NCBI GenBank assembly: GCA_030595255.1
Contig: JAUVDP010000013.1
Coordinates: 1-32,775, forward strand
Length of the DNA: 32,775 bases
Source of the DNA: Mycoplasmatota bacterium
GTDB lineage: Bacteria; Bacillota_I; Bacilli_A; Izemoplasmatales; Izemoplasmataceae
Direction of reading: 5' to 3'
This document shows positions 1,014 through 32,514 of this stretch, piece after piece. Both the position numbers and the translations under genes were made by a program. Numbering within the stretch: position 1 is the first letter of the stretch; every line of letters starts with the position of its first letter. The notes beneath the pieces are model-generated. The model was not told the origin of the DNA and ran no database searches. It saw only the letters and a list, made by a program, of their open reading frames with translations.

Positions 1014-2039
1014 ATGCACAATGAAATCAAGAGTGTCCAACCATTATTGGATAGTAACGGTTATTTAGCAAATCCAGGATTTGCTAAAAAGATGTTTTGG
1101 GAATATAAGAGAGCTGATATAAAAGCATCTAAATTTAAAATTAAAGAGTGGGATTACTACCTAATCAATAATGATGAATTTGGGATTGCTTTTACAATCG
1201 CAGATAATTCTTATTTAGGATTTATAAGTGTTTCAGTTCTGGATTTTAAAAATAAAAGTTACGAGACCTTTAGTAAAATGAAACTTTTCCCAATGGGTAA
1301 ATTGAATATGCCAGAGACTTCTTTGAAAGGTGATGTACTATATAAAGATAAAAGTATTAATTTAAAGTTTGAAAATAGAGGAACCAAAAGAGTTATATCT
1401 TGTAAAATACCAAATTTTAAAGGTGGGAAAACATTAGATTGTGTAATAGATTTAACTAAAGAACCAGAAGAATCAATGGTTATTGCAACTCCTTTTGCAA
1501 AAAATAAAAAAGCATTTTATTTTAATCAAAAGATAAATTGCATGAGAGCTGATGGAATTGTAGAGTATGGAGATAACAAAATTGTTTTTAATGATGCATT
1601 TGCTGTTTTGGATTGGGGTAGAGGTGTATGGACATATGACAATACATGGTTTTGGGGAACCGCTTCAGGTAAAATTAACAATAAACAGTTTGGATTTAAT
1701 ATTGGGTATGGATTTGGAGATTTAAGTAATGCTACTGAAAATATGATTTTTTATGATGGGAATGCACATAAATTTGATAAAATTGAATTTCATATTTCAA
1801 AAAATGGTAAAAAACATGATTTTATGAAGGAATGGAAAATTACTTCAAATGATAATAGAATGAATTTGACATTTACACCAATACTAGACCGTTTCGATAA
1901 AATATCACTTTTATTACTAGTGAGTGAACAACATCAAGTTTTTGGTAATTTTAATGGATATGTTATTTTAGATAATGGAACAAAATTAGAAATAAAAAAT
2001 TTATTAGGATCATCCGAAGTGGTACATAATAGATGGTAA
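1014..2039 (+). CDS. DUF2804 family protein
   Basis: A 341-residue protein with no signal peptide or membrane segment. The family-typical features are an early N-P-G-F-A segment, a central AVLDWGRGVWTY motif (about residue 200) and W-F-W-G-TASG just after it, which I recognise as DUF2804 (PF10974). The family is predicted to be beta-rich and has no established reaction. The start ATG has a good site (AGGAGG at 1002-1007). It lies 18 bases before an aldehyde dehydrogenase gene, with an MFS transporter gene following, so the three probably share a transcript and a task. The family call is firm; the function is not known. Confidence 0.75.
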   Translation: MHNEIKSVQPLLDSNGYLANPGFAKKMFWEYKRADIKASKFKIKEWDYYLINNDEFGIAFTIADNSYLGFISVSVLDFKNKSYETFSKMKLFPMGKLNMPETSLKGDVLYKDKSINLKFENRGTKRVISCKIPNFKGGKTLDCVIDLTKEPEESMVIATPFAKNKKAFYFNQKINCMRADGIVEYGDNKIVFNDAFAVLDWGRGVWTYDNTWFWGTASGKINNKQFGFNIGYGFGDLSNATENMIFYDGNAHKFDKIEFHISKNGKKHDFMKEWKITSNDNRMNLTFTPILDRFDKISLLLLVSEQHQVFGNFNGYVILDNGTKLEIKNLLGSSEVVHNRW

Positions 2040-2057
2040 TGAAAGTCGGGTACATAT

Positions 2058-3428
2058 ATGAATGCTAAAGATCTAGTAAAAAAACAAAGAAATTACTTTA
2101 AAAACAAAAATACAATTAGTTATGAATTTAGATACAATGCCTTATCTAAATTAAGAGATGCAATCTTAAAAAATGAAGAGAAATTAACTGTAGGATTATA
2201 TGAAGATTTAGGTAAAAATAAGACAGAGAGCTATTTTGCAGAAATTGGGCAAGTATTAAAAGAACTAAATTATATTCAAAAAAGGCTTAAAAAATTAATG
2301 AAAAATAAAAAAGTGAAATCTCATATCGTTGATTTCCCTTCTAAAAGTTTTATATCACCATATCCATATGGAGTAACGTTAATTATTAGTCCTTGGAATT
2401 ATCCTATTTTATTATCTCTTGGTCCATTAGTTGGAGCAATAGCGGCAGGTAATACTGTGATTCTAAAGCCAAGTGAATATAGTGCTAATATATCAAAATT
2501 GTTAGAAGAGATGTTATCAATTGTGTTTCCTGATGAATATATTAAAGTTGTAAATGGAGAAGTTAAAGAAACTCAGAATTTATTAAACCAAAAGTTGGAT
2601 TATATCTTTTTCACTGGAAGTTCTAATGTTGGGAAAATAATTATGGAAAAAGCGAGTAAACATTTAACACCAATAAGTTTAGAATTAGGTGGAAAGAGTC
2701 CTGTCATTGTAGATCAATATGCCAATATTGAAGTGGCTGCTAGAAGAGTAGCTTTTGGTAAACTAATAAATTCAGGACAAAGTTGTGTTGCACCTGATTA
2801 TGTTTATATTCATGAATCAGTTAAAGACAAGTTTATTAAATGTTTAAAAGAATCAATTGAGGAATTTTTTGGAAAAAATCCGATTGAATCTAGGGATTAT
2901 GGAAAAATTATTAATGATAGACATTATAATAGGCTAATTAATTTATTAAACGGAGAGAGTATTGTATATGGTGGGATTACTAATAAACAAGAAAGAAAAA
3001 TAGCACCAACAATACTTGATAATATTTCAAAAGAAAGTAAAGTAATGCAAGAAGAAATATTTGGACCTATATTACCACTAATAACATATAAAGATTTTAA
3101 TGAGGTAGTATTGTATATTAATGAAAATCCTACACCCCTTGCTTTATATTTGTTTACAGAAAACAAGAATGTTATTAAAACAGTTCTAAATGAATGTAAA
3201 TTTGGTGGAGGATGTATAAACGATACAATTATGCATGTATCATCAGATTATTTACCTTTTGGTGGAGTTGGTGAGAGTGGAATGGGTTCATATCACGGGA
3301 AAGCTAGTTTTGATACTTTTACACACTATAGAAGTGTAATTCATAAGTCAACAAAAATTGATATTAAAGCTAGGTATGCTCCATATACAAAAGCAAAGGA
3401 AAAATTGATAAGAGTATTATTAAAATAA
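2058..3428 (+). CDS. NAD(P)-dependent aldehyde dehydrogenase (class 3-like)
   Basis: A 456-residue protein of the NAD(P)+-dependent aldehyde dehydrogenase superfamily, oxidising an aldehyde to the acid. SPWNYP (Asn114), ELGGKSP (general-base Glu209) and SGQSCV (nucleophile Cys243) are all present, and GGVGESGMG is near the C-terminus. The length of about 455 residues and the C-terminal layout resemble the class 3 fatty-aldehyde group (AldX/YwdH/coniferyl aldehyde dehydrogenase type) rather than the 480-500-residue betaine-aldehyde type. It is separate from the CoA-acylating enzyme at 24742. It lies 18 bases after the DUF2804 gene and about 80 bases before the MFS gene. The substrate is unknown; a lipid-derived or otherwise hydrophobic aldehyde is possible. 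Confidence 0.88.
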   Translation: MNAKDLVKKQRNYFKNKNTISYEFRYNALSKLRDAILKNEEKLTVGLYEDLGKNKTESYFAEIGQVLKELNYIQKRLKKLMKNKKVKSHIVDFPSKSFISPYPYGVTLIISPWNYPILLSLGPLVGAIAAGNTVILKPSEYSANISKLLEEMLSIVFPDEYIKVVNGEVKETQNLLNQKLDYIFFTGSSNVGKIIMEKASKHLTPISLELGGKSPVIVDQYANIEVAARRVAFGKLINSGQSCVAPDYVYIHESVKDKFIKCLKESIEEFFGKNPIESRDYGKIINDRHYNRLINLLNGESIVYGGITNKQERKIAPTILDNISKESKVMQEEIFGPILPLITYKDFNEVVLYINENPTPLALYLFTENKNVIKTVLNECKFGGGCINDTIMHVSSDYLPFGGVGESGMGSYHGKASFDTFTHYRSVIHKSTKIDIKARYAPYTKAKEKLIRVLLK

Positions 3429-3512
3429 GATTATTATTTAAATCTTTTAACTAAACTGCAAGAAAAGAGGAGTCTAATTTGAGAGGAAATTGTTAAAATT
3501 AGATAAAAAAAC

Positions 3513-4856
3513 ATGAAAACAAATAATAAATTAGGAATGAAAAAATGGACGCTAATATGGGGTCTAGGAATGGCAGGACAAATCTGCTGGAATATTGAAA
3601 ATCAATGGTTCAATACTTTTGTTTATGAAGAGATTGCTCCTAATTCGAGCATTATTATGTGGATGGTTATAGTAAGTGCATTTATGACAACATTTTCAGC
3701 GTTTTTATTTGGTACACTATCTGATAGAATTGGTAAAAGAAAACCATTTATTGTATCTGGATATATTTTATGGGGACTTTTTACAATTGCCTTTGGATTT
3801 ACAATGTTTGTTCCAAGATCTGCAAGCGGTTCGATAATGCTTATCGCTGTGATATTAGTTATGGCTGATGCAATTATGAGTTTCTTTGGTTCAATGGGTT
3901 ACGATTCAGGATTCCATCCTTGGATAACTGATATGCTAAATAATAAAAACCGAGGTTCATTAGGAGCAGCTTTGGCTGCATTACCTGTTTTAGGAACAAT
4001 TGTTGGGACAGTTATTGGTGGAATTATTATTGCATCATTTGGATATATTTGGTTCTTTACAGCAATGGGAATAGTTGTTATTATTGTGGGTGTTTTATCA
4101 GTATTCACTGTGAAGGAATCGCCAACGCTAGTAGCGAGAAAAGAAGGTACATTTTTCCAACAATTTATGACTTCATTTAAGTTTAAAGAATTCTTTGATA
4201 TTAAAGAATTAGTATGGGTAAATACTACAGTTACTATATTCTTTATTGGATGTAATGTATACTTTGTTCATCTTGGCAACTTATTTATTTATAATTATGG
4301 ATTTAAAGAAGATGCTGTTGGTATCATTCAGGGTATTGGACTTTTTATAGCAATCCTTTTTACGATTCCAGGAATGAAATTAATAAATAAAGATAAATTT
4401 TCGTTATTGATAATAATAAGCATAGTGGTTAATACTATAGGATTAGTATTAATGTATTTCTTGGGAAGTACTAGTGATCCTTCTGGAATATTTATTGTAA
4501 GTAATATACCATTGATTTTAGGTATAACACTTATGGGAATGGGGTATGTTCTGTTTTTTCAAGCGACTATAGTATGGACTAAACAACTTTACCCATCTGG
4601 TAGTAGAGGACGTTTTGAAGGAATTAGAGTAGTGTTTTTTGTTTTGATTCCGATGCTGATTGGTCCAATAATTGCCAACCCAATAATTAAAATATATGGA
4701 AAGTCATTCACTAGAGAATATTCAACTGGTGTTATTACAGGACAAGTTCCAACAGAGTTACTATTCTTAGTAGCCGCTGTAATAATTTTGTTATCTTTAA
4801 TTCCACTTGTGAAAGCAACGAAATATCATAATAATCGTTTACTAGAAGAGGTATAA
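3513..4856 (+). CDS. MFS transporter
   Basis: A 447-residue polytopic membrane protein with about 12 hydrophobic segments. The loop between segments 2 and 3 carries the MFS motif GTLSDRIGKRKP (about residues 69-80). The start WxLIWGLGMAGQICWNIENQWFN resembles the sugar-type SLC45/glycoside-pentoside branch that bacteria often use for uncharacterised solutes. The start is not certain: no strong ribosome site precedes 3513, and a second in-frame ATG lies at 3537. It ends the DUF2804-aldehyde dehydrogenase-MFS group, so it may import the precursor or export the product of that pathway. The substrate cannot be read from the sequence. Confidence 0.8.
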   Translation: MKTNNKLGMKKWTLIWGLGMAGQICWNIENQWFNTFVYEEIAPNSSIIMWMVIVSAFMTTFSAFLFGTLSDRIGKRKPFIVSGYILWGLFTIAFGFTMFVPRSASGSIMLIAVILVMADAIMSFFGSMGYDSGFHPWITDMLNNKNRGSLGAALAALPVLGTIVGTVIGGIIIASFGYIWFFTAMGIVVIIVGVLSVFTVKESPTLVARKEGTFFQQFMTSFKFKEFFDIKELVWVNTTVTIFFIGCNVYFVHLGNLFIYNYGFKEDAVGIIQGIGLFIAILFTIPGMKLINKDKFSLLIIISIVVNTIGLVLMYFLGSTSDPSGIFIVSNIPLILGITLMGMGYVLFFQATIVWTKQLYPSGSRGRFEGIRVVFFVLIPMLIGPIIANPIIKIYGKSFTREYSTGVITGQVPTELLFLVAAVIILLSLIPLVKATKYHNNRLLEEV

Positions 4857-17434: not shown

Positions 17435-17929
17435 ATGAAAAACTCAATAAAAACTGTTAGAGACAATATGGGTTTAACTCAAGAGCAAGTGTCTATCTTA
17501 ACGGGAGTTCCTGTGAAGACATTACGTAATTGGGAACAAGAGATAAGAACACCAAGTGAATGGACTCTTGATCTTATTGTTGATAGACTTCTTCGTATAA
17601 AAATAGAAGAGCAGTTAAAGATAGATGACGAATCAGGTGTTTTGTCGTATTTAACAATTAAAGAGAAAGTAAGTGAAGTAGCTAAGAATTACGATATTGA
17701 TAAAATCTATTTGTTTGGATCATATGTAAAAGGACAAGCAACAGAGCAAAGTGATATAGATATCTATATGGAATCTAATCTATTTGGATTAGAATACTTT
17801 GGCTTTGCGGAAGAACTGAGGGAGAAATTACATAAGAGAATAGGATTATTAAGTAATAAAACAGTAAAGCAAATGTCAATGATAAGTCAAGAAATTGAGT
17901 CTACTGGAATGTTAATCTATGAAAGATAA
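17435..17929 (+). CDS. mntA: MntA-type nucleotidyltransferase antitoxin with HTH domain
   Basis: A 164-residue protein with two parts. Residues 5-55 are an XRE-like HTH (NMGLTQEQVSILTGVPVKTL then RNWEQ). Residues 85-160 are a minimal nucleotidyltransferase: GSYVKGQATEQSDID fits GS-x10-D-x-D, with Ser96, Asp107 and Asp109. In the MntA-HepT system the nucleotidyltransferase AMPylates the HEPN toxin and blocks it. The classic MntA lacks the HTH, so this fusion probably adds operator binding. GAGGTGA is 6 bases before the ATG. It overlaps hepT by 11 bases. Confidence 0.85.
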   Translation: MKNSIKTVRDNMGLTQEQVSILTGVPVKTLRNWEQEIRTPSEWTLDLIVDRLLRIKIEEQLKIDDESGVLSYLTIKEKVSEVAKNYDIDKIYLFGSYVKGQATEQSDIDIYMESNLFGLEYFGFAEELREKLHKRIGLLSNKTVKQMSMISQEIESTGMLIYER

Positions 17930-18236
17930 GGAATATATTGTAAGAATCTTGAAGTATGCAAAAAAAATTACTAAATATATGAGTAATGTCAATTCTTTTA
18001 ATGCATTTTCTGAAAATGAGGAGAAAGTTGATGCAGTGATATTGAATTTAGAGCAAATAGGAGAAACTGCAAAAAAGCTATCAGAAATAGTAAAAGAAGA
18101 ACACAAAGAAATTAATTGGACAAATATAATAGGTCTCCGCAATATGATTTCTCATGAGTATGAAGGAATTAGTTTGGAAATCATTTATGACATTGCAACA
18201 AAGAGTGTGAGAGACTTAATAAATAAATTAAGTTGA
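17919..18236 (+). CDS. hepT: HepT-type HEPN toxin
   Basis: A 105-residue helical protein. RNMISHEY near the end (Arg74, His79, Tyr81) is the R-x4-H-x-Y motif of HEPN ribonucleases of the HepT/DUF86 family; the Tyr is the residue AMPylated by MntA in studied members. The gene starts inside the end of mntA (11-base overlap), which fits coupled synthesis. All key residues are present, so the toxin is probably active. It stops with TGA, 9 bases before repeat copy C. Confidence 0.87.
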   Translation: MKDKEYIVRILKYAKKITKYMSNVNSFNAFSENEEKVDAVILNLEQIGETAKKLSEIVKEEHKEINWTNIIGLRNMISHEYEGISLEIIYDIATKSVRDLINKLS

Positions 18237-22045: not shown

Positions 22046-22088
22046 ACCGTTTTTAATATTTGACAAATTTTGAGTAAACGGTTATAAT
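22046..22088 (+). promoter_or_regulatory. BMC operon promoter with LacI-type inverted repeat
   Basis: A consensus -35 TTGACA (22060-22065) and -10 TATAAT (22083-22088) are 17 bases apart. ACCGTTT (22046-22052) and AAACGGT (22076-22082) form an inverted repeat on either side of the -35, the right arm touching the -10. The right arm by itself (TAAACGGTTA) looks like a LacI/GalR site with a central CG. The LacI-type regulator of the first gene is the likely ligand, giving self-control of the whole operon. Confidence 0.75.
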
Positions 22089-22154
22089 ATAAGATAATAA
22101 GCATATATAGAATATGAAAGAAAATTACATTCATTGTAAAAGGGGGTGTAGCTT

Positions 22155-23180
22155 ATGATAAAGAATAAAGATGTCGCAATAAAAGCTGGAGTATCTGTAG
22201 CTACAGTTTCTAGGGTGATGAATGACAGTGGTTATGTTAAAGATGAGACCAAAAGGATTGTATTCAAAGCATTTGATGAACTAGCTAATCAAGATAGAAT
22301 ATTGGTTCATTCAATAAAGAATACTAAGACGAATATCATCGGTGTTGTTATACCTGATATATCAAATCCATTCTTTGGAGAAGTAATTAAAGGAATATCA
22401 AAAGTAGCTGACAAGATGAATGTCAGTTTATTAGTATGTAATACAGAAGAAGAAATCGATAAAGAGTTAAAATATCTAGATTTATTTAAAACGAATAACA
22501 TTATGGGATTGATAATTACTCCTAAAACAGATCAAGTTGGATATAATTCTAAATACCTATATCAACTAGAAGATATTGGAGTACCTGTTGTACTACTAGA
22601 CCGTGGTATTAATATCTCTCATTTTAATTCAGTATTCGTAAATAATATATCTGGATCTTTTGATGCAGTAAATACGTTTATTAAAGAAGGTCATAAAGAT
22701 ATTGCTATAATCTCCGGACCTATGTCAAGTAAACCAGGTAGAGAGAGATTTTATGGATATGAGAATGCTTTAAAAAGTAATAATATGGAAGTTAATAATG
22801 ATTATGTATTTTATGGAGATTTTAAACTTGAAAGTGGATATAAAATGACAAAACAAATATTAAAACTTAAGAAAAGACCTACTGCTATATTCTCAGCAAA
22901 CAATATGATGACTCAAGGATGTGTTAAGGCACTTGTTGAAAATGGATTATCTATTCCTAAAGATATGGCATTAATCGGATTTGATGATGTTGATATGTTT
23001 GAAATAATGAATATGGGTATTTCGACTGTATCAAGACCAACTGAATTAATGGGAGAAGTAGCGGCAGAGATGTTATTTGATTTAATAGAAGATGAGCAAG
23101 TAAAACCTACATCAATTAATGAAGTTTTACTTGAAACAAAATTAATTTTAAGAGGATCTGAAAAACTAGTTACAAGATAA
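22155..23180 (+). CDS. LacI/GalR-family transcriptional regulator
   Basis: A 341-residue regulator. The HTH is KDVAIKAGVSVATVSRVMND (residues 5-24), followed by a linker (VHSIKNTKT) in which the usual hinge motif is weakly kept, and a periplasmic-binding-protein-like sensor domain (IGVVIPDISNPFFGEVIKG, VLLDRGI, LIGFDDVDMFEIMN). The ATG follows AGGGGGTG closely. It is the first gene of the BMC operon and 13 bases before the TIM gene. By family rule the inducer is a sugar or sugar phosphate; deoxyribose 5-phosphate or a related metabolite would suit the pathway but is not shown. Confidence 0.88.
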   Translation: MIKNKDVAIKAGVSVATVSRVMNDSGYVKDETKRIVFKAFDELANQDRILVHSIKNTKTNIIGVVIPDISNPFFGEVIKGISKVADKMNVSLLVCNTEEEIDKELKYLDLFKTNNIMGLIITPKTDQVGYNSKYLYQLEDIGVPVVLLDRGINISHFNSVFVNNISGSFDAVNTFIKEGHKDIAIISGPMSSKPGRERFYGYENALKSNNMEVNNDYVFYGDFKLESGYKMTKQILKLKKRPTAIFSANNMMTQGCVKALVENGLSIPKDMALIGFDDVDMFEIMNMGISTVSRPTELMGEVAAEMLFDLIEDEQVKPTSINEVLLETKLILRGSEKLVTR

Positions 23181-23193
23181 GGAGTTAATAATT

Positions 23194-24012
23194 ATGGATA
23201 AAAGAGATATTGAAGAGATTGTAAGAAACGAGATTGTTAAAAGTGTTTTAGACAGTCAAGAGTTCATTATTGCAGGAAACTGGAAAATGAATAAAACAAA
23301 ACAAGAGGTTATTTCATTTTTAGATGATGTAGCTAATCATGACTTTGGAGATAAGAACAAAATCATTATTGCTCCACCTAATCCTTATCTATATTTATTT
23401 GAGGAAAAATTAAGATACAGTAAAGTTCTTTATGGAGTTCAAAACTTATTCCCTAAAGAAAGTGGCGCTTTCACAGGAGAGTTATCATATACAGTAGCAA
23501 AGGACTTTGGTGCTAAATACGCAATCATAGGACATTCTGAAAGAAGAACGTTATTTGATGAATGTGACATATTAGTTTCTAAGAAAGTAAGGATTTGTGT
23601 TCAAAATCAAATTATACCAATTCTTTGTATCGGTGAAAATTTAGATCAAAGAAGAAGTGGAGATTATAGACAACACTTAGCTAATCAAATTAGAGAAGGA
23701 TTAATTAGAATTAGTGGAAATGAATTACAAGATGTAATTATTGCTTATGAACCAATATGGGCAATAGGAACAGGTGAAACAGCTACACCTTCTCAAGTAG
23801 AAGAAACTCATATGTTTATTAGAGAATTTCTAGTAAATGAATATGGAAATGATTTAGGAAAAGATATTCCGTTGTTATACGGAGGTAGTGTGAAACCATC
23901 AAACGTAAAAGAACTGGCACTTGCTCAAAGTGTTTCTGGATTCTTGATTGGTGGCGCAAGCTTAGAAGCTAGCACAATTATAGAAATAAATGACATATTA
24001 AATAATAAATAG
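23194..24012 (+). CDS. tpiA: Triose-phosphate isomerase with BMC-targeting N-terminal helix
   Basis: A 272-residue TIM that interconverts glyceraldehyde 3-phosphate and dihydroxyacetone phosphate. All catalytic motifs are intact: AGNWKMN (Asn29, Lys31), GHSERR (His114), AYEPIWAIGTG (Glu186) and LYGGSVKPSN. A usual TIM is ~250 residues and starts 2-5 residues before the AGNWKMN strand. Here 22-24 residues precede it, and DIEEIVRNEIVKSVL in this extension forms an amphipathic helix like BMC encapsulation peptides. It lies right after the regulator in the BMC operon, so it is probably a lumen enzyme and not the glycolytic copy. It would use the glyceraldehyde 3-phosphate made by DeoC. Confidence 0.92.
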   Translation: MDKRDIEEIVRNEIVKSVLDSQEFIIAGNWKMNKTKQEVISFLDDVANHDFGDKNKIIIAPPNPYLYLFEEKLRYSKVLYGVQNLFPKESGAFTGELSYTVAKDFGAKYAIIGHSERRTLFDECDILVSKKVRICVQNQIIPILCIGENLDQRRSGDYRQHLANQIREGLIRISGNELQDVIIAYEPIWAIGTGETATPSQVEETHMFIREFLVNEYGNDLGKDIPLLYGGSVKPSNVKELALAQSVSGFLIGGASLEASTIIEINDILNNK

Positions 24013-24049
24013 TCAAATATATATATAAACTATAGAAAGGTTGTGGAAT

Positions 24050-24742
24050 ATGGAAGTAAAAAACCTTGATAAACTTGCTAAGGTAGTTACCGACAACATA
24101 TTTGAGAAATTAGATTTTAAAACTGATTTTAAAATCAGTGACAAATCATGTTTGATTTTAGTTCCTAACATTGGATTAGGATTTAAAGAATATCTTAATT
24201 TTATTATTAAGAATTATCCAAACAATGATTTATATTTAGGATCAAGTGAAGAGTTCTCAAAAACATATCATATTGAAAACAACAGGAATTTAAAATTCAT
24301 AAATTTTGATACTAAAAATAGTGAATTTATAAATATTCTTGATGCAGTCGAAACTATCATAATTCTTGGACTTAAAATAAATCAGTTAAAAGCTTTATCA
24401 GAAACTGACGACCTTGATGATATTAATCATATTATATTAGAAAGTTTAATGTCTAATAAATCAATAGAGATTATGATTAATACAAATGGATTAATGTTCA
24501 ATAAAATAGCAAATATAGTTTATGAAATCAGAAATATTGGAATTAACGTAACAAATATACAACAAAGTAATATATCAACATTAAATGATATTGATTTAAT
24601 CACAGAAAGCTATGTATTAAATTTAAGAGATAATGGATTAAAGTCATTAATAATGAGCAGAAAACAATTAATTACTCCACTCGCAAAAGATAAACTACGC
24701 GAATTTAAAATTGGAATTGAATATGATGAGGAGGCTAAATAA
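24050..24742 (+). CDS. BMC-operon protein of unknown function (flavoprotein/PduM-EutQ-like tail)
   Basis: A 230-residue protein. I do not recognise it with certainty. There are alternating hydrophobic strands and helices (SCLILVPNIGLGF, AVETIIILGLKI) that recall a Rossmann-type or flavoprotein fold. The C-terminal KQLITPLAKDKLREFKIGIE recalls a short ITP-(L/S)-A-x-D tail seen at the ends of several BMC proteins. The ATG at 24050 with AGAAAGG at 24034-24040 is preferred to the TTG at 24041. It lies between TIM and the aldehyde dehydrogenase and overlaps the latter by one base, so it is made at similar levels. Possible roles are core scaffold or redox flavoprotein. Confidence 0.6.
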   Translation: MEVKNLDKLAKVVTDNIFEKLDFKTDFKISDKSCLILVPNIGLGFKEYLNFIIKNYPNNDLYLGSSEEFSKTYHIENNRNLKFINFDTKNSEFINILDAVETIIILGLKINQLKALSETDDLDDINHIILESLMSNKSIEIMINTNGLMFNKIANIVYEIRNIGINVTNIQQSNISTLNDIDLITESYVLNLRDNGLKSLIMSRKQLITPLAKDKLREFKIGIEYDEEAK

Positions 24743-26169
24743 TGAGTACAAATGATTTAATAAAACAATTAACTGAAGAGATGGAAAGAAAATATGGGAA
24801 TGGTGTGGTTACTAAACCTATCATACCTACTAATAGTTATAATACAGGGTATGTTGGTATCTTTGAAAATGTAGAAGATGCAATACTCGCTGCAAAAGAA
24901 TCACAAAAACAACTAATGGAATTAAGCATGAAGAAACGTAAAGAAATTATTGAAGCTATGCGTAAAGCCAGTTTAGAAAATGCTGAGAAGTTAGCTATAA
25001 TGGCTCATGATGAAACAGGATTTGGTAGAGTAGCAGATAAGATCATTAAAAATGTACTCGCAGCTGAAAAAACTCCTGGTACTGAAGATTTAAGCTCAAG
25101 TACTTTTACTGGAGATGACGGGATGACTTTGGTTGAACTAGCACCTTATGGAGTAATTGGTTCAATAACTCCATCAACTAATCCTAGTTCAACAATAATT
25201 AATAACAGTATTAGTATGGTTGCTGCTGGGAATGGTGTTGTTTATAACCCACATCCAAGTGCAAAAAAAGTTACATCTGAAACTATTTCAGTATTAAATA
25301 AAGCAATTAGTTCTGTAGGAGGACCAAGAGAATTACTTACAGCACCGCTTACACCAACAATGGAGACTAGTAAAGTAATAATGACACATAAAGATGTTAG
25401 AATCTTAGTTGTAACTGGTGGAGAAGCAGTTGTTGGAGTAGCTATGAAAAGTGGTAAAAAAGTGATTGCAGCTGGACCAGGGAACCCTCCTGTTATAGTA
25501 GATGAAACTGCTAATATTAAAAAAGCAGCTAATGATGTTTTTAGAGGTGCAAGCTTTGATAACAATATCTTATGTATTGCTGAAAAAGAAGCATTTGTAA
25601 TTAATAGTGTAATTAATGAATTTAAACAAGAAATGGTAAGAAATGGAGCATATGAACTTAAGAGTCACGAAATAGATTTAGTAACTGAAGAAGTATTTAC
25701 TAAAAATAAAAACGGGGCTACTGTTGTTAATAGAAAACATGTAGGAAAATCTGCAGTTGAAATATTAAAAGCATGTAACATTATGGTTCATCAAGATATT
25801 AGATTAATAATTGCTGAAGTATCTGAAAATCATCCATTTGTAACAGTTGAAATGTTAATGCCGGTTCTAGGAATAGTAAGAGTCTACTCAATAGATGAAG
25901 CTATAGAAAAAGCAGTAATAGCTGAAGATGGTTGTCTTCACACAGCTATTATGCATAGTGAATCTGTATCTAATTTAACTAAAGCAGCACGCGCATTAAA
26001 TACATCAATCTTTGTAAAAAATGCTCCATCATTTGCAGGATTAGGAATTGAAGGAGAAGGTTTTACTACTCTTACAATTGCAACACCTACAGGAGAAGGA
26101 TTAACTTCTGCTAGAAGTTTTACAAGAATAAGAAGATGTACATTATCTGGTGGATTTAGAATTGTATAA
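24742..26169 (+). CDS. BMC CoA-acylating aldehyde dehydrogenase (PduP/EutE type)
   Basis: A 475-residue enzyme that turns acetaldehyde, CoA and NAD+ into acetyl-CoA and NADH. The nucleophile Cys278 sits in DNNILCIAEKE, as in PduP/EutE; the GS-x-TPSTNPSS segment and the GPGNPP motif also match this group. Residues 1-18, with NDLIKQLTEEMERKY, form an amphipathic helix like the PduP encapsulation peptide. It starts by a one-base overlap with the unknown gene, with GAGGAGG before the ATG. It is the core oxidising step of the metabolosome, using the acetaldehyde released by DeoC. The substrate preference is inferred from DeoC, not from the enzyme. Confidence 0.93.
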   Translation: MSTNDLIKQLTEEMERKYGNGVVTKPIIPTNSYNTGYVGIFENVEDAILAAKESQKQLMELSMKKRKEIIEAMRKASLENAEKLAIMAHDETGFGRVADKIIKNVLAAEKTPGTEDLSSSTFTGDDGMTLVELAPYGVIGSITPSTNPSSTIINNSISMVAAGNGVVYNPHPSAKKVTSETISVLNKAISSVGGPRELLTAPLTPTMETSKVIMTHKDVRILVVTGGEAVVGVAMKSGKKVIAAGPGNPPVIVDETANIKKAANDVFRGASFDNNILCIAEKEAFVINSVINEFKQEMVRNGAYELKSHEIDLVTEEVFTKNKNGATVVNRKHVGKSAVEILKACNIMVHQDIRLIIAEVSENHPFVTVEMLMPVLGIVRVYSIDEAIEKAVIAEDGCLHTAIMHSESVSNLTKAARALNTSIFVKNAPSFAGLGIEGEGFTTLTIATPTGEGLTSARSFTRIRRCTLSGGFRIV

Positions 26170-26182
26170 TAGGAGTGAATAA

Positions 26183-27496
26183 ATGATGGATAATTATATA
26201 AAGAGAATTAAAGATGCCGGGATTGTAGGTGCTGGTGGGGCAGGATTCCCTACACATGTTAAGTTAAATGCTAAAGCAGAATTAGTAATAATTAATGGAG
26301 CTGAATGTGAACCATTATTAAGAGTAGATCAACAATTAATGGAGTTTTCAAGCCAAGATGTTGTTGATGGATTAAAGATTGCTATAGCTCAAACAGGAGC
26401 AAAAGAAGGTGTTATTTGTTTAAAAGCTAAATACGCAAATGCAATAGTTAATCTTGAAGATATTGTTAAAGATATACCTGATATTAGATTACAAATAATA
26501 AAAGATTACTACCCAGCCGGAGATGAAGTACAACTTGTTTATGAAGTAACAAAAAAAGTTGTTCCTCTAATGGGGATTCCACTTGATGTTGGAGTTGTAG
26601 TAATTAATGTATTAACAACAATAAATATAGCAAGAAATGTTCCTGTTACAGAAAGAGTAATTACTGTTACAGGAGAAGTAGATAATCCAACTACATTTAT
26701 TGCACCAGTTGGTACACCGTATAGCGAACTAATTAATGCATGTGGTGGACCAAAGGATATTGAAAACTATAGTATCATAGTTGGTGGTCCAATGATGGGT
26801 GATGTTGAAGATGATTGGGATGCACCAGTTACAAAGTTAACTGGAGGAATTATTATTCTACCTAAGTTACATAGTTTAGTAATTAAGAAAACAAGACCAA
26901 CAGAAACAGATCTTAACTTAACAAAAGCAATTTGTTGTCAATGTAGTATGTGTACTGATATGTGTCCTAAAAATATTTTAGGATTAAATACAGAACCACA
27001 TAAAGTAATGAGAGGACTTGCTAATGAAGACCCAGGGGCTTTAGGAACTATCTCTTCAGTAGTATCTTGTAATAACTGTAACTTATGTAGTTTATATGCT
27101 TGTCCAATGGATTTAGATCCAGGAAAGATAACTACAATGGTTAAAACAAGTTTACTTAGCAAAGGAGCTAAAACAGAAAAAGTTGTTCCTTACGAAACTG
27201 ATGATTTAAGAGAAAGTAAAAAAGTACCAACTAAAAGATTAATAGCAAGACTTGAATTACCTGATTATGATTTGCCTGCGCCACTTGATAATAATATTTT
27301 TAAAACTAATCAAGTTAAAATATTATTAAAGCAACATATTGGAGTTGTAGCAACTTCACTAGTAAGTATTGGTGACAGGGTAAGTAAAGGAACATTGATT
27401 GCATCGTGTAATGATAAACTTGGAGCAAATATTCACGCAAGTATTAATGGAAGTGTAATAAAAATAACTAATGAATATATAGAAGTTAAGGCTTAG
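26183..27496 (+). CDS. pduS: PduS-like RnfC-domain Fe-S flavoprotein
   Basis: A 437-residue protein. The N-terminus DAGIVGAGGAGFPTH, then NGAECEPLL is the RnfC/NADH-binding part, with a SLBB-like stretch in the middle (about 150-240). Two 4Fe-4S motifs follow: CCQCSMCTDMCP (Cys251, 254, 257, 261) and CNNCNLCSLYACP (Cys296, 299, 302, 307). The end has a biotin/lipoyl-like IHASINGSVIKI segment. PduS in propanediol BMCs is a cobalamin reductase. No B12 enzyme is found in this operon, so it probably moves electrons from NADH, perhaps to the Fe-S cluster of the next gene product. RBS: TAGGAG before the ATG pair. Confidence 0.9.
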   Translation: MMDNYIKRIKDAGIVGAGGAGFPTHVKLNAKAELVIINGAECEPLLRVDQQLMEFSSQDVVDGLKIAIAQTGAKEGVICLKAKYANAIVNLEDIVKDIPDIRLQIIKDYYPAGDEVQLVYEVTKKVVPLMGIPLDVGVVVINVLTTINIARNVPVTERVITVTGEVDNPTTFIAPVGTPYSELINACGGPKDIENYSIIVGGPMMGDVEDDWDAPVTKLTGGIIILPKLHSLVIKKTRPTETDLNLTKAICCQCSMCTDMCPKNILGLNTEPHKVMRGLANEDPGALGTISSVVSCNNCNLCSLYACPMDLDPGKITTMVKTSLLSKGAKTEKVVPYETDDLRESKKVPTKRLIARLELPDYDLPAPLDNNIFKTNQVKILLKQHIGVVATSLVSIGDRVSKGTLIASCNDKLGANIHASINGSVIKITNEYIEVKA

Positions 27497-27507
27497 GAGG
27501 TGTGTAT

Positions 27508-28053
27508 ATGGAAGCATTAGGAATGATTGAACTTAATAGTATAGCTAGAGGAATTGAAGCAGGAGATGCAATAATAAAAACTGCTAATGTAAAATTAGTA
27601 GGAGCATATGCATCATGTCCTGGGAAATATGTAGTAATGGTAAGAGGTCAAGTATCAGCTGTAAAAAGCGCAATAGAAGTAGGAGCAAAAACATCAGGTA
27701 AATCGTTAGTTAACGATATCCTGATTGCAAATATTCATCCGCAAGTATTCAGTGCACTTAGTCAAACAACAGACTTTGAACCTAGAGGATCTGCAGGAAT
27801 TATTGAAACTTATAGTTTAGCTACTGCGGTATTAGTATCAGATGCAGCTGTTAAAGCTGCAGATGTAGATCTTATTGAAATAAGATTAGGAAGAGGTCTA
27901 GGGGGAAAAGCATTTATAGTGTTAACTGGAGATGTTAGTAGTGTTAAAGCAGCTGTAGAGGCTGCGGTAGTAGCAAATAAAGAAGATGGAATGATTGCTC
28001 ACACAGCAGTAATTCCAAGAATTAGTAAGGAAATATTAAATACACTTTTATAA
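27508..28053 (+). CDS. pduT: BMC-T shell protein (PduT type, Fe-S pore)
   Basis: A 181-residue protein with two BMC domains (about 1-85 and 92-180), forming trimeric tiles with pseudohexagonal symmetry. The ASCPGKY motif matches PduT; Cys37 lies where PduT Cys38 holds a 4Fe-4S cluster at the trimer pore. The ATG at 27508 is chosen because AGGAGG ends at 27500; the in-frame GTG at 27502 touches that site and would be too close. It follows pduS by 11 bases, the usual partner. The two proteins probably carry electrons through the shell. Confidence 0.93.
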   Translation: MEALGMIELNSIARGIEAGDAIIKTANVKLVGAYASCPGKYVVMVRGQVSAVKSAIEVGAKTSGKSLVNDILIANIHPQVFSALSQTTDFEPRGSAGIIETYSLATAVLVSDAAVKAADVDLIEIRLGRGLGGKAFIVLTGDVSSVKAAVEAAVVANKEDGMIAHTAVIPRISKEILNTLL

Positions 28054-28082: not shown

Positions 28083-28349
28083 ATGAAAGAAGCATTAGGA
28101 TTAATAGAAACAAGAGGATTTGTAGGAGCTATTGAAGCTGCTGATGCAATGGTTAAAGCTGCTAACGTAAGATTAGTAGGAAAAGAAAAAACTGGTAGCG
28201 GACTTGTTACTGTAATGGTACGTGGAGATGTAGGAGCTGTTAAAGCTGCTGTTGAAGCGGGAAGTGAAGCAGCACGCCGTGTTGGTGAGTTAGTTTCAGT
28301 TCATGTAATACCAAGACCACACGCAGATGTTGAAGAATTATTAAAGTAA
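28083..28349 (+). CDS. BMC-H hexameric shell protein 1 (PduA type)
   Basis: An 88-residue single BMC domain of the PduA/PduJ type, a main shell tile. The pore loop is KTGSG (residues 36-40), as in PduA with KIGSG, which lets small polar metabolites pass. [10 protein letters not shown] at the end is the family hallmark. A run of 14 A and an AGAAAGGAG site lie before the ATG. First of four near-identical tandem copies. Confidence 0.95.
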
Positions 28350-28352
28350 TCT

Positions 28353-28390
28353 AAGACTTACAAAAAATAAGTGAAATGGAGGAAATGAAG
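28353..28390 (+). repeat. Duplicated intergenic spacer with small hairpin, copy 1
   Basis: The spacer after BMC-H 1 (AAGACTTA...AAATAAGT, then AAATGGAGGAAA) is repeated after BMC-H 3 (29014-29049). ACTTA (28356-28360) and TAAGT (28368-28372) can pair just before the ribosome site of the next gene. Confidence 0.55.
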
Positions 28391-28705
28391 ATGAAAGAAG
28401 CATTAGGATTAATAGAAACAAGAGGATTTGTAGGAGCTATCGAAGCTGCTGATGCAATGGTTAAAGCTGCAAATGTTAAGATTGTTGGTAAAGAAAAAAC
28501 TGGTTCAGGACTTGTTACTATCATGGTACGTGGAGATGTAGGAGCTGTTAAAGCTGCAGTTGAAGCAGGAAGTGAAGCTGTAAGACGTGTTGGAGAATTA
28601 GTATCTGTTCATGTAATACCAAGACCTCACGCAGATGTTGAATTAATGTTAGAAAAACCTAAAGGTAAAGCAAAAGCTAAGGTAGCACCAAAAGCAATAA
28701 AATAA
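28391..28705 (+). CDS. BMC-H shell protein 2 with Lys/Ala-rich C-terminal tail
   Basis: A 104-residue PduA-type BMC-H. Positions 1-84 are nearly the same as copy 1 (R30K, L31I, V44I, A64V). It then has a different end: [21 protein letters not shown], a basic flexible tail of ~16 residues absent from the other copies. The tail may face the lumen or the outside and bind cargo, nucleic acid or scaffold. An in-frame ATG at 28376 overlaps the GGAGG site; the ATG at 28391 is the likely start. Confidence 0.93.
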
Positions 28706-28744
28706 TTATTAATATATAAAACTAAAAAATCGGAGGAAACAAAC

Positions 28745-29011
28745 ATGAAAGAAGCATTAGGACTAATTGAAACAAGAGGATTTGTAGGAGCTATTGAAGC
28801 AGCTGATGCAATGGTAAAATCTGCAAATGTAAGGTTAGTAGGAAAAGAAAAAACTGGTTCAGGACTAGTTACAGTAATGGTACGTGGAGATGTAGGAGCT
28901 GTTAAAGCAGCAATTGAAGCAGGAAGCGAAGCAGCACGACGTGTTGGTGAGTTAGTTTCTGTTCACGTAATTCCAAGACCACACGCAGACGTTGAAGAGT
29001 TATTAAAATAA
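28745..29011 (+). CDS. BMC-H shell protein 3 (PduA type)
   Basis: An 88-residue BMC-H differing from copy 1 at two residues (A26S, V57I). Pore loop KTGSG is unchanged. CGGAGGAAA precedes the ATG. The same spacer that follows copy 1 follows this gene, so copies 1 and 3 probably share a duplication history. Confidence 0.95.
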
Positions 29012-29013
29012 TT

Positions 29014-29049
29014 TAAGACTTAAAAATAAGTTAAATGGAGGAAACAATA
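29014..29049 (+). repeat. Duplicated intergenic spacer with small hairpin, copy 2
   Basis: It matches the spacer at 28353-28390: AAGACTTA, an A-rich loop, AAGTTAAATGGAGGAAA. ACTTA (29018-29022) can pair with TAAGT (29027-29031). Confidence 0.55.
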
Positions 29050-29316
29050 ATGAAAGAAGCATTAGGATTAGTAGAAACAAGAGGATTTATTGGAGCAATA
29101 GAAGCAGCTGATGCAATGGTTAAAGCTGCAAATGTAAGATTAGTAGGAAAAGAAAAAACTGGTTCAGGACTAGTTACAGTAATGGTACGTGGAGATGTCG
29201 GAGCTGTTAAAGCTGCGGTTGAAGCAGGAAGTGAAGCAGCTAGACGTGTTGGTGAATTAGTATCTGTTCATGTAATTCCTAGACCACATGCAGATGTTGA
29301 AGACTTACTTAAATAG
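29050..29316 (+). CDS. BMC-H shell protein 4 (PduA type)
   Basis: An 88-residue BMC-H differing from copy 1 at three residues (I8V, V14I, E85D). The pore KTGSG is the same. The ATG at 29050 lies 8 bases after GGAGG; the ATG at 29035 overlaps that site and is not used. Last of four tandem BMC-H genes, 34 bases before deoC. Confidence 0.95.
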
Positions 29317-29350
29317 TAATAAAAATTAAAAGTGAAAAGAGTTGAAAAAT

Positions 29351-30118
29351 ATGGAATTAGACAAATTAATAGACAGAATTGCTGAGGAAGTATATCGTAA
29401 GATAGCAAGTGAGAATAACGGAGCAAATAAAATTGATGCAACTAATAATAATGATATCGCATCAATTATTGATCATACGTTATTAAAGCCAGAAGCAACT
29501 GAATCAGATATCAAAAAAGTATGTGAAGAGGCAATTGAATATAACTTTAAGTCAGTATGTATTAATACACACTATGTGACTTTAGTTTCTCGTCTTTTAG
29601 CTGGTACTAAAGTTGATACTTGTTGTGTTGTAGGGTTCCCTTTAGGGGCATCTTCTACAAGAGCTAAAATTGATGAAACATATGATGCACTTAAAAACGG
29701 TGCAAATGAAATAGATATGGTTATCAATATTGGTGCACTTAAATCAGGTGACTGGAATACTGTTAAAAGAGACATTGAAGGTGTAACAAATGCAGCTAAA
29801 GGTAGAGCATTAGTAAAAGTTATTTTAGAAACTTCATTACTAAATGATGAAGAAAAAATTAAAGCTTGTACTATCGCTAAAATGGCAAGAGCTGATTTTG
29901 TTAAAACATCAACTGGATTTAATACTGGTGGAGCAACAATAGAAGATATTAGACTTATGCGTAAAGTTGTAGGACCTAATATGGGAGTTAAAGCATCAGG
30001 TGGAGTTCGTGATACTAAAACTGCTAGAGCAATGATGGCTGCAGGAGCAAGTAGAATCGGAACAAGTTCAGGAATAAATATTGTTAGAGGTACAAAACCT
30101 TCAACAGGTACTTATTAG
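29351..30118 (+). CDS. deoC: Deoxyribose-5-phosphate aldolase with BMC-targeting helix
   Basis: A 255-residue class I aldolase that splits 2-deoxyribose 5-phosphate into acetaldehyde and glyceraldehyde 3-phosphate. The Schiff-base Lys185 is in [10 protein letters not shown], Lys214 in GVKASGGVR, and Asp122 in NEIDMV; all active-site residues are present. The catalytic domain starts with [11 protein letters not shown] at residue ~40, so there is a ~35-residue extension; short DeoC proteins start about 6 residues before this motif. The first 18 residues ([18 protein letters not shown]) form a typical encapsulation-peptide helix, followed by an Asn-rich linker. The ATG at 29351 is preferred to the TTG at 29342. 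This is the signature enzyme of the compartment. Confidence 0.95.
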
Positions 30119-30139: not shown

Positions 30140-30445
30140 ATGTATGCTGCTAGAATAATCGGAACTGTTGTTGCAACACAAAAAGATCCGAGAATGAATA
30201 GTTTAAAAATGCAAGTTGTACAACCTGTAAACTTAGTTACTTTTGAAAATGAAGGTAAACCAGCTGTTGCAATTGATGCTGTTGGTGCTGGAAATTCAGA
30301 AATAGTTTTAGTTGTTGCAGGAAGTTCTGCTAGATTAACAGAACTTACTCAAAATAAACCTGTTGATGCTACAATTATGGCAATTGTTGATTATATTGAT
30401 ATTGAAGGTAAAAACGTCTTTAGTAAAAACAAGAAGGAGACGTAA
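30140..30445 (+). CDS. BMC-P pentameric vertex protein 1 (EutN/CcmL)
   Basis: A 101-residue EutN/CcmL-type protein forming the pentamers that cap shell corners. ARIIGTVVATQKDPRMNSLK at the start and AVDGAGN-like IDAVGAGNSEIVLVV in the centre are family hallmarks. It has a charged C-terminal end (NVFSKNKKET) longer than in the copy at 30911. It ends 2 bases before rpiB. Confidence 0.93.
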   Translation: MYAARIIGTVVATQKDPRMNSLKMQVVQPVNLVTFENEGKPAVAIDAVGAGNSEIVLVVAGSSARLTELTQNKPVDATIMAIVDYIDIEGKNVFSKNKKET

Positions 30446-30447
30446 AT

Positions 30448-30906
30448 ATGAAAATAGCAATTGGTTGTGATCATGGTGGGTTTGAGTTAAAAGAAGTAAT
30501 TAAAGAATATTTAAGTGAAGAATTACATATTCAATATGAAGATTTTGGAACTTATAATAAAGTAAGATGTGATTATCCAAATTATGCCTTTTTAGTTTCA
30601 CATGCAGTTTCGACACAAAAATGCGATTTAGGTATAATGATTGATGGTGCAGGAATAGGATCTGCGATGATGGCTAATAAAGTACCTGGTGTGCTTGCCG
30701 CATGCGCAAACGAGATATATACTGCAGAAAATAGTCGTCATCATAACGGAGCAAATGTTCTAACACTGGGTAGTATGGTAATTGGACCAGGTGTAGCTAA
30801 AGAAATAGTTAAAACTTTCTTAACTACTAAATTTGAAGGTGAAAGAAACATGCAAAGAATTAATAGTATTTTAGAAATTGAAAAAAGATTAAATAATAGG
30901 GGGTGA
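30448..30906 (+). CDS. rpiB: RpiB-family sugar-phosphate isomerase, Asp at the catalytic Cys position
   Basis: A 152-residue RpiB/LacA/LacB-type isomerase, which interconverts ribose 5-phosphate and ribulose 5-phosphate in the standard form. The start CDHGGFELK, the DYPNYA phosphate-site segment, SRHHNGANVL (His98/His99) and the FEGERNMQRI tail match RpiB. In the usual ICGTGIG motif the Cys is the catalytic base; here it reads IDGAGIG with Asp66. LacA also has Asp in the comparable place, so the enzyme may act on another aldose/ketose phosphate or use Asp as base. No N-terminal targeting helix is seen, so its location in the lumen is unproven. It sits between BMC-P genes. Confidence 0.88.
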   Translation: MKIAIGCDHGGFELKEVIKEYLSEELHIQYEDFGTYNKVRCDYPNYAFLVSHAVSTQKCDLGIMIDGAGIGSAMMANKVPGVLAACANEIYTAENSRHHNGANVLTLGSMVIGPGVAKEIVKTFLTTKFEGERNMQRINSILEIEKRLNNRG

Positions 30907-30910
30907 TTCC

Positions 30911-31177
30911 ATGCAAATGGCTAAAGTTATTGGTATGGTCACATCAACAGTAAAAGTAAAAGATATTAAGGGTGTTACACTTCTAGTGATTCAACCCGTT
31001 AATTCAAAACATGAATTACTAGGAACACCTATCGTTGCAGCAGATGTTTTTGGTGCAGGCGTAGGTGAATATGTATTTTATGCAAAAAGCAAAGAAGGGG
31101 CGATGAACCTCCCTATTCCAACGTCATGTGTTGATGCAGGAATTGTTGGAATAATTGATAGTGTTCATACGCTTTAG
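30911..31177 (+). CDS. BMC-P pentameric vertex protein 2
   Basis: An 88-residue EutN/CcmL-type protein with MAKVIGMVTSTVKVKDIKG at the start and ADVFGAGVGEYVFY in the centre. It is shorter than the copies at 30140 and 31204. It follows the rpiB stop (TGA) by 4 bases. The ATG at 30917 is an alternative start. Confidence 0.92.
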   Translation: MQMAKVIGMVTSTVKVKDIKGVTLLVIQPVNSKHELLGTPIVAADVFGAGVGEYVFYAKSKEGAMNLPIPTSCVDAGIVGIIDSVHTL

Positions 31178-31203
31178 AATAACTGAAGAACGAGGTGAGA
31201 ATA

Positions 31204-31500
31204 ATGCAACTTGCAAAAGTAGTAGGAAATTTAGTATCAACACATAAAAATGAAAAACTAAGAGGAAAAAAACTCTTATTTGTTCAACCACTCGATGAAA
31301 AATTAGTTCCTTTTGGGAATGAAATGCTTGCGGTTGATGGAGTTGGGGCAGGAATTGGTGATACAGTAGTAATTATAAATGAAGGCGGATCAGCTAGAAT
31401 GATTACTAATGCTGCTAGCCCTTATTCTCCAATTGAGTTATGTATAGCTGGAATTGTCGATTCAGTTCAAACTGAAAACGATTATAAAATAATTAAATAG
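31204..31500 (+). CDS. BMC-P pentameric vertex protein 3
   Basis: A 98-residue EutN/CcmL-type protein (MQLAKVVGNLVSTHKNEKLR, AVDGVGAGIGDTVVI). It is closest in pattern to classic EutN. The ATG at 31204 is spaced correctly from GAGGTGA; an in-frame GTG at 31195 lies inside that site. It lies 15 bases before pta. Confidence 0.93.
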   Translation: MQLAKVVGNLVSTHKNEKLRGKKLLFVQPLDEKLVPFGNEMLAVDGVGAGIGDTVVIINEGGSARMITNAASPYSPIELCIAGIVDSVQTENDYKIIK

Positions 31501-31515
31501 TAAAGAGATGATGAT

Positions 31516-32514
31516 ATGAAACTTTTGGAAAAGATAATTAGTCAAGCAAAACAAAATATTCAAACTATAGTACTACCTGAAGGTAAGGATCAAAGAATTA
31601 TTGATGCTGCTAGAGAACTTAAAAGTCAAAACGTCGCAAATGTTATAGTTTTAATTAATATTGCAGATATAAATGAAGAGACTAAAAAGTTACAAAATGA
31701 AGGTATAGAAGTTATTGTAGTTGAAAATTCAGATAAATTGAATACTTATAGTTCGATATTAGTTGATTTACGTAAAGCTAAAGGAATGACAAAAGAAGAA
31801 GCAGATAAACTTATTTTAAACACTGTATATTATGGTGTAATGATGGTTAAAAATAACGATGCTGATGGAATGGTTGCAGGAGCAATTACTTCAACAGGAG
31901 ACGTTCTTAGACCTGCACTTCAAATACTTAGAACGGCAAAAAATGTTAAAATTGTGTCGTCGTTTTTCCTTATGGATGTACCAAATTCAATTAGTGTTAA
32001 AAATAATGTATTTGCCTTTTCTGATTGTGGTCTAGTTGTTAATCCAAGCGTAGAGGAATTATCTGAAATTGCTATTCAAACAGCAAGATCATTTGACTAT
32101 TTAACTCAGAGTGAACCACGTATTGCAATGCTTTCTTATTCGACATTCGGAAGTGCAAGTGGTGAGGTAGTTAGTAAGGTAGTTAAAGCAACAAAAAATG
32201 TACAAGCACGCTATCCTAATTTAAAAATAGATGGTGAATTACAACTTGATGCTGCAATAGTACCTTCTGTTGCTAAACAAAAGGCACCTTTCAGTAATGT
32301 TGCAGGACAGGCTAATGTATTAATATTCCCTGATTTACAATCAGGTAATATTGGATATAAATTGGTTGAAAGGTTAGCTAATGCTGCTGCCTATGGTCCG
32401 ATTACACAAGGGCTTAGTAGACCTGTTAATGATCTATCACGAGGATGTTCTTATGAAGACATTATTGCTGTAGTAGCAATAACTGCTTTACAATCTCAAT
32501 CATATAGAAGTTAG
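31516..32514 (+). CDS. pta: Phosphate acetyltransferase (Pta type)
   Basis: A 332-residue phosphotransacetylase that turns acetyl-CoA and phosphate into acetyl-phosphate and CoA. QTIVLPEGKDQRI at the start, GMVAGAITSTGDVLRP, LSYSTFGSASG, ELQLDAAIVPSVAKQKAP and ANVLIFPDLQSGNIGYKL match the PTA_PTB family. Many BMCs use the unrelated PduL for this step; none is seen here. The N-terminus resembles ordinary Pta with no clear targeting helix. Placed last in the BMC operon, it would recycle CoA and yield acetyl-phosphate for ATP. No acetate kinase gene is in the window. Confidence 0.93.
   Translation: MKLLEKIISQAKQNIQTIVLPEGKDQRIIDAARELKSQNVANVIVLINIADINEETKKLQNEGIEVIVVENSDKLNTYSSILVDLRKAKGMTKEEADKLILNTVYYGVMMVKNNDADGMVAGAITSTGDVLRPALQILRTAKNVKIVSSFFLMDVPNSISVKNNVFAFSDCGLVVNPSVEELSEIAIQTARSFDYLTQSEPRIAMLSYSTFGSASGEVVSKVVKATKNVQARYPNLKIDGELQLDAAIVPSVAKQKAPFSNVAGQANVLIFPDLQSGNIGYKLVERLANAAAYGPITQGLSRPVNDLSRGCSYEDIIAVVAITALQSQSYRS

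Follow-up and report, generated by a model that had tools for sequence, protein, structure and literature searches.

An SPU-type microcompartment operon in Izemoplasmatales encodes PduS and PduT without an alcohol dehydrogenase or a B12-dependent enzyme

A predicted organelle for the sugar of DNA

We identified an operon that is predicted to build a sugar-phosphate-utilizing (SPU) microcompartment for the breakdown of deoxyribose-5-phosphate from DNA. The host is a wall-less sediment bacterium of the Izemoplasmatales (genome G000; 1.60 Mb, 89.7% complete). The best-supported model, in which we place middling confidence, combines catabolism of the DNA sugar in an SPU compartment with export of electrons by PduS and PduT. 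It is built on the gene content, its conservation, the N-terminal extensions of cargo enzymes, cofactor motifs and the loss of cytosolic DeoC, all of which were observed.

In the proposed route, a DeoC carrying an encapsulation peptide (EP) would cleave deoxyribose-5-phosphate to acetaldehyde and glyceraldehyde-3-phosphate (G3P), and an EP-tagged triosephosphate isomerase (TIM) would yield dihydroxyacetone phosphate. An EP-tagged aldehyde dehydrogenase (AldDH) would convert acetaldehyde and CoA to acetyl-CoA and NADH, with acetyl-CoA passing to acetyl-phosphate via Pta, for ATP. Since there is no lumenal alcohol dehydrogenase (ADH), PduS, sitting beneath PduT, would re-oxidize the NADH, and electrons would leave one at a time via the cluster in the PduT pore to a cytosolic acceptor.

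Operon organization and conservation

The window, the whole stretch of 32,775 nucleotides that was analyzed, is an entire contig (contig 34), with 261 bp between the end of pta and the end of the contig. The plus-strand gene run is lacI, tim, pduM-like, aldDH, pduS, pduT, four bmcH, deoC, bmcP, rpiB, bmcP, bmcP and pta:

22060..22088, plus strand: sigma-70-like promoter of the operon, TTGACA-17-TATAAT, 5' of lacI (the sole 12/12 match in the region)
22155..23180, plus strand: LacI-family regulator (Pfam PF00356/PF13377)
23194..24012, plus strand: TIM with a 22-residue N-terminal extension (PF00121)
24041..24742, plus strand: PduM/TIGR02536-like protein with an EP-like N-terminal helix (weak PF15953 and TIGR02536)
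24742..26169, plus strand: EutE/PduP-type acylating AldDH with an EP-like N-terminal helix (NF011927, 637 bits; cut-off 403)
26183..27496, plus strand: PduS, NADH/FMN/2x[4Fe-4S] oxidoreductase related to RnfC, 437 aa (Pfam domains, RnfC match, motifs)
27502..28053, plus strand: PduT, trimeric tandem-BMC shell protein with a pore Fe-S cysteine (two BMC domains; alignment with PduT-family PDB chains)
28083..28349, plus strand: BMC-H shell protein 1, KTGSG pore motif (PF00936)
28376..28705, plus strand: BMC-H shell protein 2, Lys-rich C-terminal tail (PF00936)
28745..29011, plus strand: BMC-H shell protein 3 (PF00936)
29035..29316, plus strand: BMC-H shell protein 4 (PF00936)
29342..30118, plus strand: deoxyribose-phosphate aldolase DeoC, the signature enzyme, with an N-terminal EP (TIGR00126, 285 bits; PF01791)
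30140..30445, plus strand: BMC-P vertex protein 1 (PF03319)
30448..30906, plus strand: RpiB-type sugar-phosphate isomerase (PF02502; TIGR01120)
30911..31177, plus strand: BMC-P vertex protein 2 (PF03319)
31195..31500, plus strand: BMC-P vertex protein 3 (PF03319)
31516..32514, plus strand: Pta-type phosphotransacetylase, in place of PduL (PF01515; TIGR00651, 372 bits)

The full gene order is shared with 'Candidatus Izimaplasma' HR2, the MAG MM_PC and strain zrk6, which is recorded as having a complete genome; four loci at contig edges show it in part. The operon also stops at pta in loci L001, L003, L005, L007 and L105, and thus the absence of an ADH gene is not a truncation. No ADH lies adjacent to the operon in any locus compared, the complete zrk6 genome included. 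In one variant, from genome G008, pta is immediately followed by a flavoprotein oxidoreductase-like gene (L107:5346-6707 (-)). By eye it resembles a CoA-disulfide reductase/NADH oxidase, and it could be another NADH sink.

The promoter (TTGAC..TATAAT) is kept in 6/6 loci compared, as is an invariant element at 22113-22126 (within TATGAAAGAAAATTACAT), between promoter and lacI, which is a candidate operator or leader element. Elsewhere in the window are an MNT-type nucleotidyltransferase and HepT-like pair (17435-18236), likely a toxin-antitoxin module, and a row of genes for a DUF2804 protein, a second, non-BMC aldehyde dehydrogenase and an MFS transporter (1014-4856).

The SPU type, named by Axen 2014 (PMC4207490), is defined by DeoC and RpiB in a BMC locus and was later broadened to over 280 loci in seven subtypes (Sutter 2021, PMC8217296). 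The operon encodes the DeoC-type aldolase (PF01791) and RpiB (PF02502), BMC-H and BMC-P shell proteins and an acylating AldDH of the EutE/PduP group. Lacking is the phosphotransacylase PduL of most early SPU loci, with the Pta type present instead. PduL does not define the type, because Marinimicrobia SPU loci are also without it (Axen 2014, PMC4207490).

Putative cargo enzymes and the fate of cytosolic DeoC

DeoC, AldDH and the PduM-like protein have N-terminal amphipathic helices above shuffled expectation; for the DeoC EP, 0.3% of shuffles reach its value. The TIM extension is present in 8/8 BMC copies and absent from all 7 housekeeping copies found, genomes with PduS carrying a BMC TIM besides the housekeeping one. 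A phmmer search with this extension against the PDB gave no match, and the helical moment does not exceed that of shuffles; we call it a likely EP because of its position, its conservation and its absence from the housekeeping copy.

The PduM-like protein probably starts at the ATG at 24050. Most PDB matches of its AlphaFold2 model (pLDDT 75) are HFCD/UbiX/EpiD/DmrB flavoproteins (E 2e-5, TM about 0.5). A comparison of the family profile with E. coli CoaBC/UbiX profiles gave no match, and we therefore treat the flavoprotein-like fold as no more than a lead; going by the model, the protein is a possible FMN-binding cargo.

The BMC copy of DeoC has intact VKTSTGF and VKASGG motifs and is EP-tagged; it is the sole DeoC in G000, HR2 and the complete zrk6 genome. 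Four relatives without PduS encode one EP-less DeoC of 225 residues beside deoD. In G002, which has the SPU operon, a 187-residue deoC remnant lies between ileS and deoD (L131:10550-11113 (-)). This remnant reads RSANTV in place of KTSTGF and has lost both KASGG and the C-terminus; the cytosolic gene has decayed in place. Given the sole BMC copy in three genomes and this remnant, the organelle most likely took over deoxyribose-phosphate cleavage.

Alternatively, the compartment could run in reverse, with AldDH using NADH to make acetaldehyde and DeoC condensing it with G3P. It would then be an NADH sink and carbon store, with PduT and PduS carrying electrons inward. The DERA reaction is reversible, which counts for this reading. 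The reverse direction was proposed by Nobu 2016 for Atribacteria with a similar locus (as reported in PMC6281690). We regard it as improbable here, given that the BMC DeoC is the only DeoC of G000, HR2 and zrk6 and that electron flow from a +99 mV cluster to NAD+ would be uphill. As 'Ca. Izemoplasma' took up carbon from DNA in 13C labelling (PMC8289736), its DNA sugar should be cleaved by this sole DeoC. The replacement of cytosolic DeoC by the BMC enzyme favors catabolism over the direction proposed for Atribacteria.

PduS, PduT and the shell

The genes for PduS and PduT are at 26183-27496 and 27502-28053, exactly where the original prediction placed them, and pduS lies between the AldDH and PduT genes in every operon. 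The PduS Pfam domains Complex1_51K, SLBB, Fer4_17 and RnfC_N all score above cut-offs. Two four-cysteine cluster motifs (C251-x2-C254-x2-C257-x3-C261 and C296-x2-C299-x2-C302-x4-C307) and the glycine-rich motif G16AGGAG21 are invariant in 8 homologs aligned. The protein is 99% identical to that of HR2 and 71-83% identical to those of other Izemoplasmatales/Tenericutes. An AlphaFold2 model from eight close homologs was poor (pLDDT 52) and was set aside. The best PDB sequence match is RnfC (7zc6, E 1.3e-50), with an alignable core; PduS differs in that its RnfC_N domain is C-terminal and the operon has no other Rnf subunits, the true RnfC of the source genome being encoded separately (G000:C73). 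The cysteine spacing of both motifs and the glycine-rich motif match PduS of the Citrobacter PDU system, where the protein reduces corrins alongside diol dehydratase, PduO and PduQ (PMC2982820); none of these three is encoded in the operon here. In published work, PduS oxidizes NADH and binds PduT (PMC2982820).

PduS could instead serve in redox maintenance or oxygen protection, possibly with the PduM-like protein as its partner, or be a remnant of a pdu-like ancestor, an idea raised by Axen 2014 (PMC4207490). The HFCD-flavoprotein-like predicted fold of the PduM-like protein fits such a role. We consider it rather improbable: the operon is without an oxygen-linked gene, and PduS is not decaying, since its eight cluster cysteines and glycine-rich motif are invariant at 71-83% identity.

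PduT has two BMC domains and is 183 aa long from a GTG start or 181 aa from the in-frame ATG at 27508. Its TIGR02526 score of 130 bits is under the 250-bit cut-off, which makes it a divergent family member. The Fe-S residue Cys37 of the original prediction is found at that number when counted from the ATG (39 from the GTG). In alignments it falls on the CPGKY cysteine of PduT-family PDB chains, and every homolog aligned retains it.

The operon encodes four BMC-H, one BMC-T (PduT) and three BMC-P proteins. All four BMC-H share the KTGSG pore motif, which we take to be PduA-like. Their genes (28083-29316) are 88-98% identical to each other and, judging by sequence, arose by recent tandem duplication; HR2 has three. 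In each PduS-encoding genome checked, the BMC-domain proteins found were BMC-H and PduT, with no others. A large-pore trimer of PduB, EutL or CsoS1D type was not found in these genomes, and thus a conduit for NADH is not apparent.

B12-dependent enzymes

Profile searches of the operon found no diol dehydratase, EutBC, adenosyltransferase or B12 gene, so that the signature enzymes and adenosyltransferase of B12-dependent metabolosomes (PDU/EUT) are lacking, and no ADH. The original description of PduS and PduT without a B12-dependent enzyme or ADH is therefore accurate for the operon. Its wording "no B12 gene" does not extend to the genome, where we identified B12-dependent mutases, OraE (1310 bits) and GlmE (glutamate mutase, 733 bits), along with KDD in a lysine-fermentation cluster, a B12 radical-SAM protein and a PduO-type adenosyltransferase. 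The genes for B12-dependent fermentation of amino acids (ornithine aminomutase, glutamate mutase, lysine pathway) lie at G000:C39, C50 and C52.

PduS might be the cobalamin reductase of the cell, serving B12 enzymes encoded elsewhere; the genome has ornithine aminomutase, glutamate mutase, the lysine-fermentation cluster and a PduO-type adenosyltransferase for it to serve. We scanned 90 Izemoplasmatales genomes, taking SPU loci of other phyla from papers, and called PduS above 600 bits, the next-lower score being 168. Of the 90 genomes, 60 carry an OraE that exceeds its cut-off and 7 carry PduS; all 7 also have OraE, and 53 of the 60 genomes with OraE are without PduS. PduS is thus not a general cobalamin reductase. 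In addition, pduS always lies between the AldDH and PduT genes, and an Rfam scan of the window matched no RNA family, hence no cobalamin riboswitch. We rejected the general reductase role, as PduS does not follow B12 enzymes across the order, and hold service to B12 enzymes elsewhere to be very improbable.

Search for an alcohol dehydrogenase

An ADH for NAD+ recycling, part of the canonical metabolosome core (Axen 2014), is lacking from the operon. The original prediction would have been overturned by an encapsulated ADH encoded elsewhere, and no ADH with a targeting helix, nor any other candidate for encapsulation, was found genome-wide among the Fe-ADH and Zn-ADH families of four genomes. 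Members of these families in G000 are two BDH-type iron ADHs, AroB, one threonine dehydrogenase and KDD. The iron ADHs begin directly at the catalytic domain, without an EP, and share no more than 38% identity with any iron ADH from G002 or zrk6. In the same comparison of G000, G002 and zrk6, housekeeping TIM, AroB and Tdh are 50-70% identical and BMC TIM 65-72%. One iron ADH pair, from G002 and zrk6, reaches 49% identity and may be orthologous; no clear ADH ortholog common to G000, G002 and zrk6 was found.

An ADH without an EP could nevertheless piggy-back on AldDH, or NAD(H) could exchange across the shell, so that NADH is recycled with PduS and PduT only auxiliary. Salmonella PduQ is encapsulated in this manner, without an EP (PMC6325248). 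G000 has the two iron ADHs and the threonine dehydrogenase to draw on, and one of its ADHs has an acetate kinase-like gene nearby. We think a dedicated partner ADH unlikely, although PduQ-like piggy-backing would require no EP. With no ADH linked to the operon, no clear ortholog among the three genomes and no large-pore trimer, we judge recycling by a hidden ADH or by NAD(H) exchange unlikely, though worth serious consideration.

Proposed electron export and its acceptor

With no encapsulated ADH candidate found in the Fe-ADH and Zn-ADH families, PduS and PduT form the only route out of the lumen that we could identify for reducing power. In the export model, the enzymes may be lumenal, flux may run toward acetyl-phosphate, electrons may pass from PduS to PduT and a cytosolic acceptor may receive them. 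The redox potential and the acceptor are the weakest point of the model. Citrobacter PduS and PduT have potentials of -150 mV and +99 mV (PMC6325248, PMC2982820). If these hold, NAD+, ferredoxin and protons are out of reach for electrons at PduT; the acceptor would have to be a quinone, a flavin, a metal or oxygen, or PduT here would need a lower potential.

No gene for an electron acceptor is present in the operon. Each of the four genomes checked has [FeFe]-hydrogenase genes, and Rnf is encoded in G000. Cytochrome bd is encoded in G000 and HR2 only; as G002 and zrk6 are without it, we rejected it as a common acceptor.

The original prediction that the pair may oxidize NADH and pass electrons out is favored by the retained NADH/FMN/Fe-S features and PduT cysteine, the lack of an encapsulated ADH candidate, a PduS distribution that does not track B12 enzymes and a shell with only BMC-H and PduT as BMC-domain proteins. 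It sits less well with the published PduT potential (PMC2982820). Furthermore, PduS and ADH are both missing from certain SPU loci of other phyla (Axen 2014, PMC4207490), and thus PduS is no universal ADH substitute. Tentatively, PduS and PduT may be the sole exit for lumenal reducing power, ADH recycling having been abandoned and the organelle having replaced the cytosolic DeoC of its hosts. If so, all acetaldehyde from DNA sugar would go to acetyl-phosphate, giving one ATP per acetaldehyde rather than one for every two.

Comparison with known systems

Whether microcompartment shells conduct electrons has been debated since at least 2010. Electron export by PduS and PduT has been discussed for PDU (Parsons 2010, PMC2982820) and GRM (Ferlez 2019, PMC6325248), and Axen 2014 (PMC4207490) noted for GRM1 that they may shuttle electrons out. 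The idea was thus already published in 2010-2021; as far as we found, the literature holds no test of it for the SPU type. We found no paper on Izimaplasma or Izemoplasma and "microcompartment" that describes this organelle in the group, and the words aldolase, acetaldehyde and compartment are absent from the study of DNA degradation by 'Ca. Izemoplasma' (PMC8289736). What this analysis adds is a test of PduS against B12 enzymes across genomes, a survey of ADHs, an inventory of shell proteins and the replacement of cytosolic DeoC together with its decay. Through these operons, sediment bacteria that degrade DNA are tied to an organelle for the DNA sugar.

The PDU system shares the PduT cysteine (Parsons 2010, PMC2982820). 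GRM1, GRM3 and GRM5 share adjacent pduS and pduT without B12 chemistry and a proposed electron transfer across the shell, but have a glycyl-radical signature enzyme, and the generic core described includes an ADH (PMC6325248). The Listeria EUT compartment, tied to extracellular electron transfer, shares a PduT-like shell protein and surplus NADH from the acetate branch; it differs in having an ADH (EutG), ethanolamine as substrate and a link via Ndh2 (PMC8547011). Many PduS/PduT systems are hard to interpret because ADH or B12 chemistry is also present, whereas these SPU operons have neither. Closest are the SPU loci of Atribacteria, with DeoC, RpiB, AldDH and PduS, TIM in one locus, no need for cobalamin, no B12 enzyme and ADH as the one missing core enzyme (PMC4207490, PMC8217296). 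The operon described here differs from them in its Pta in place of PduL, in its Izemoplasmatales host and in the loss or decay of cytosolic DeoC.
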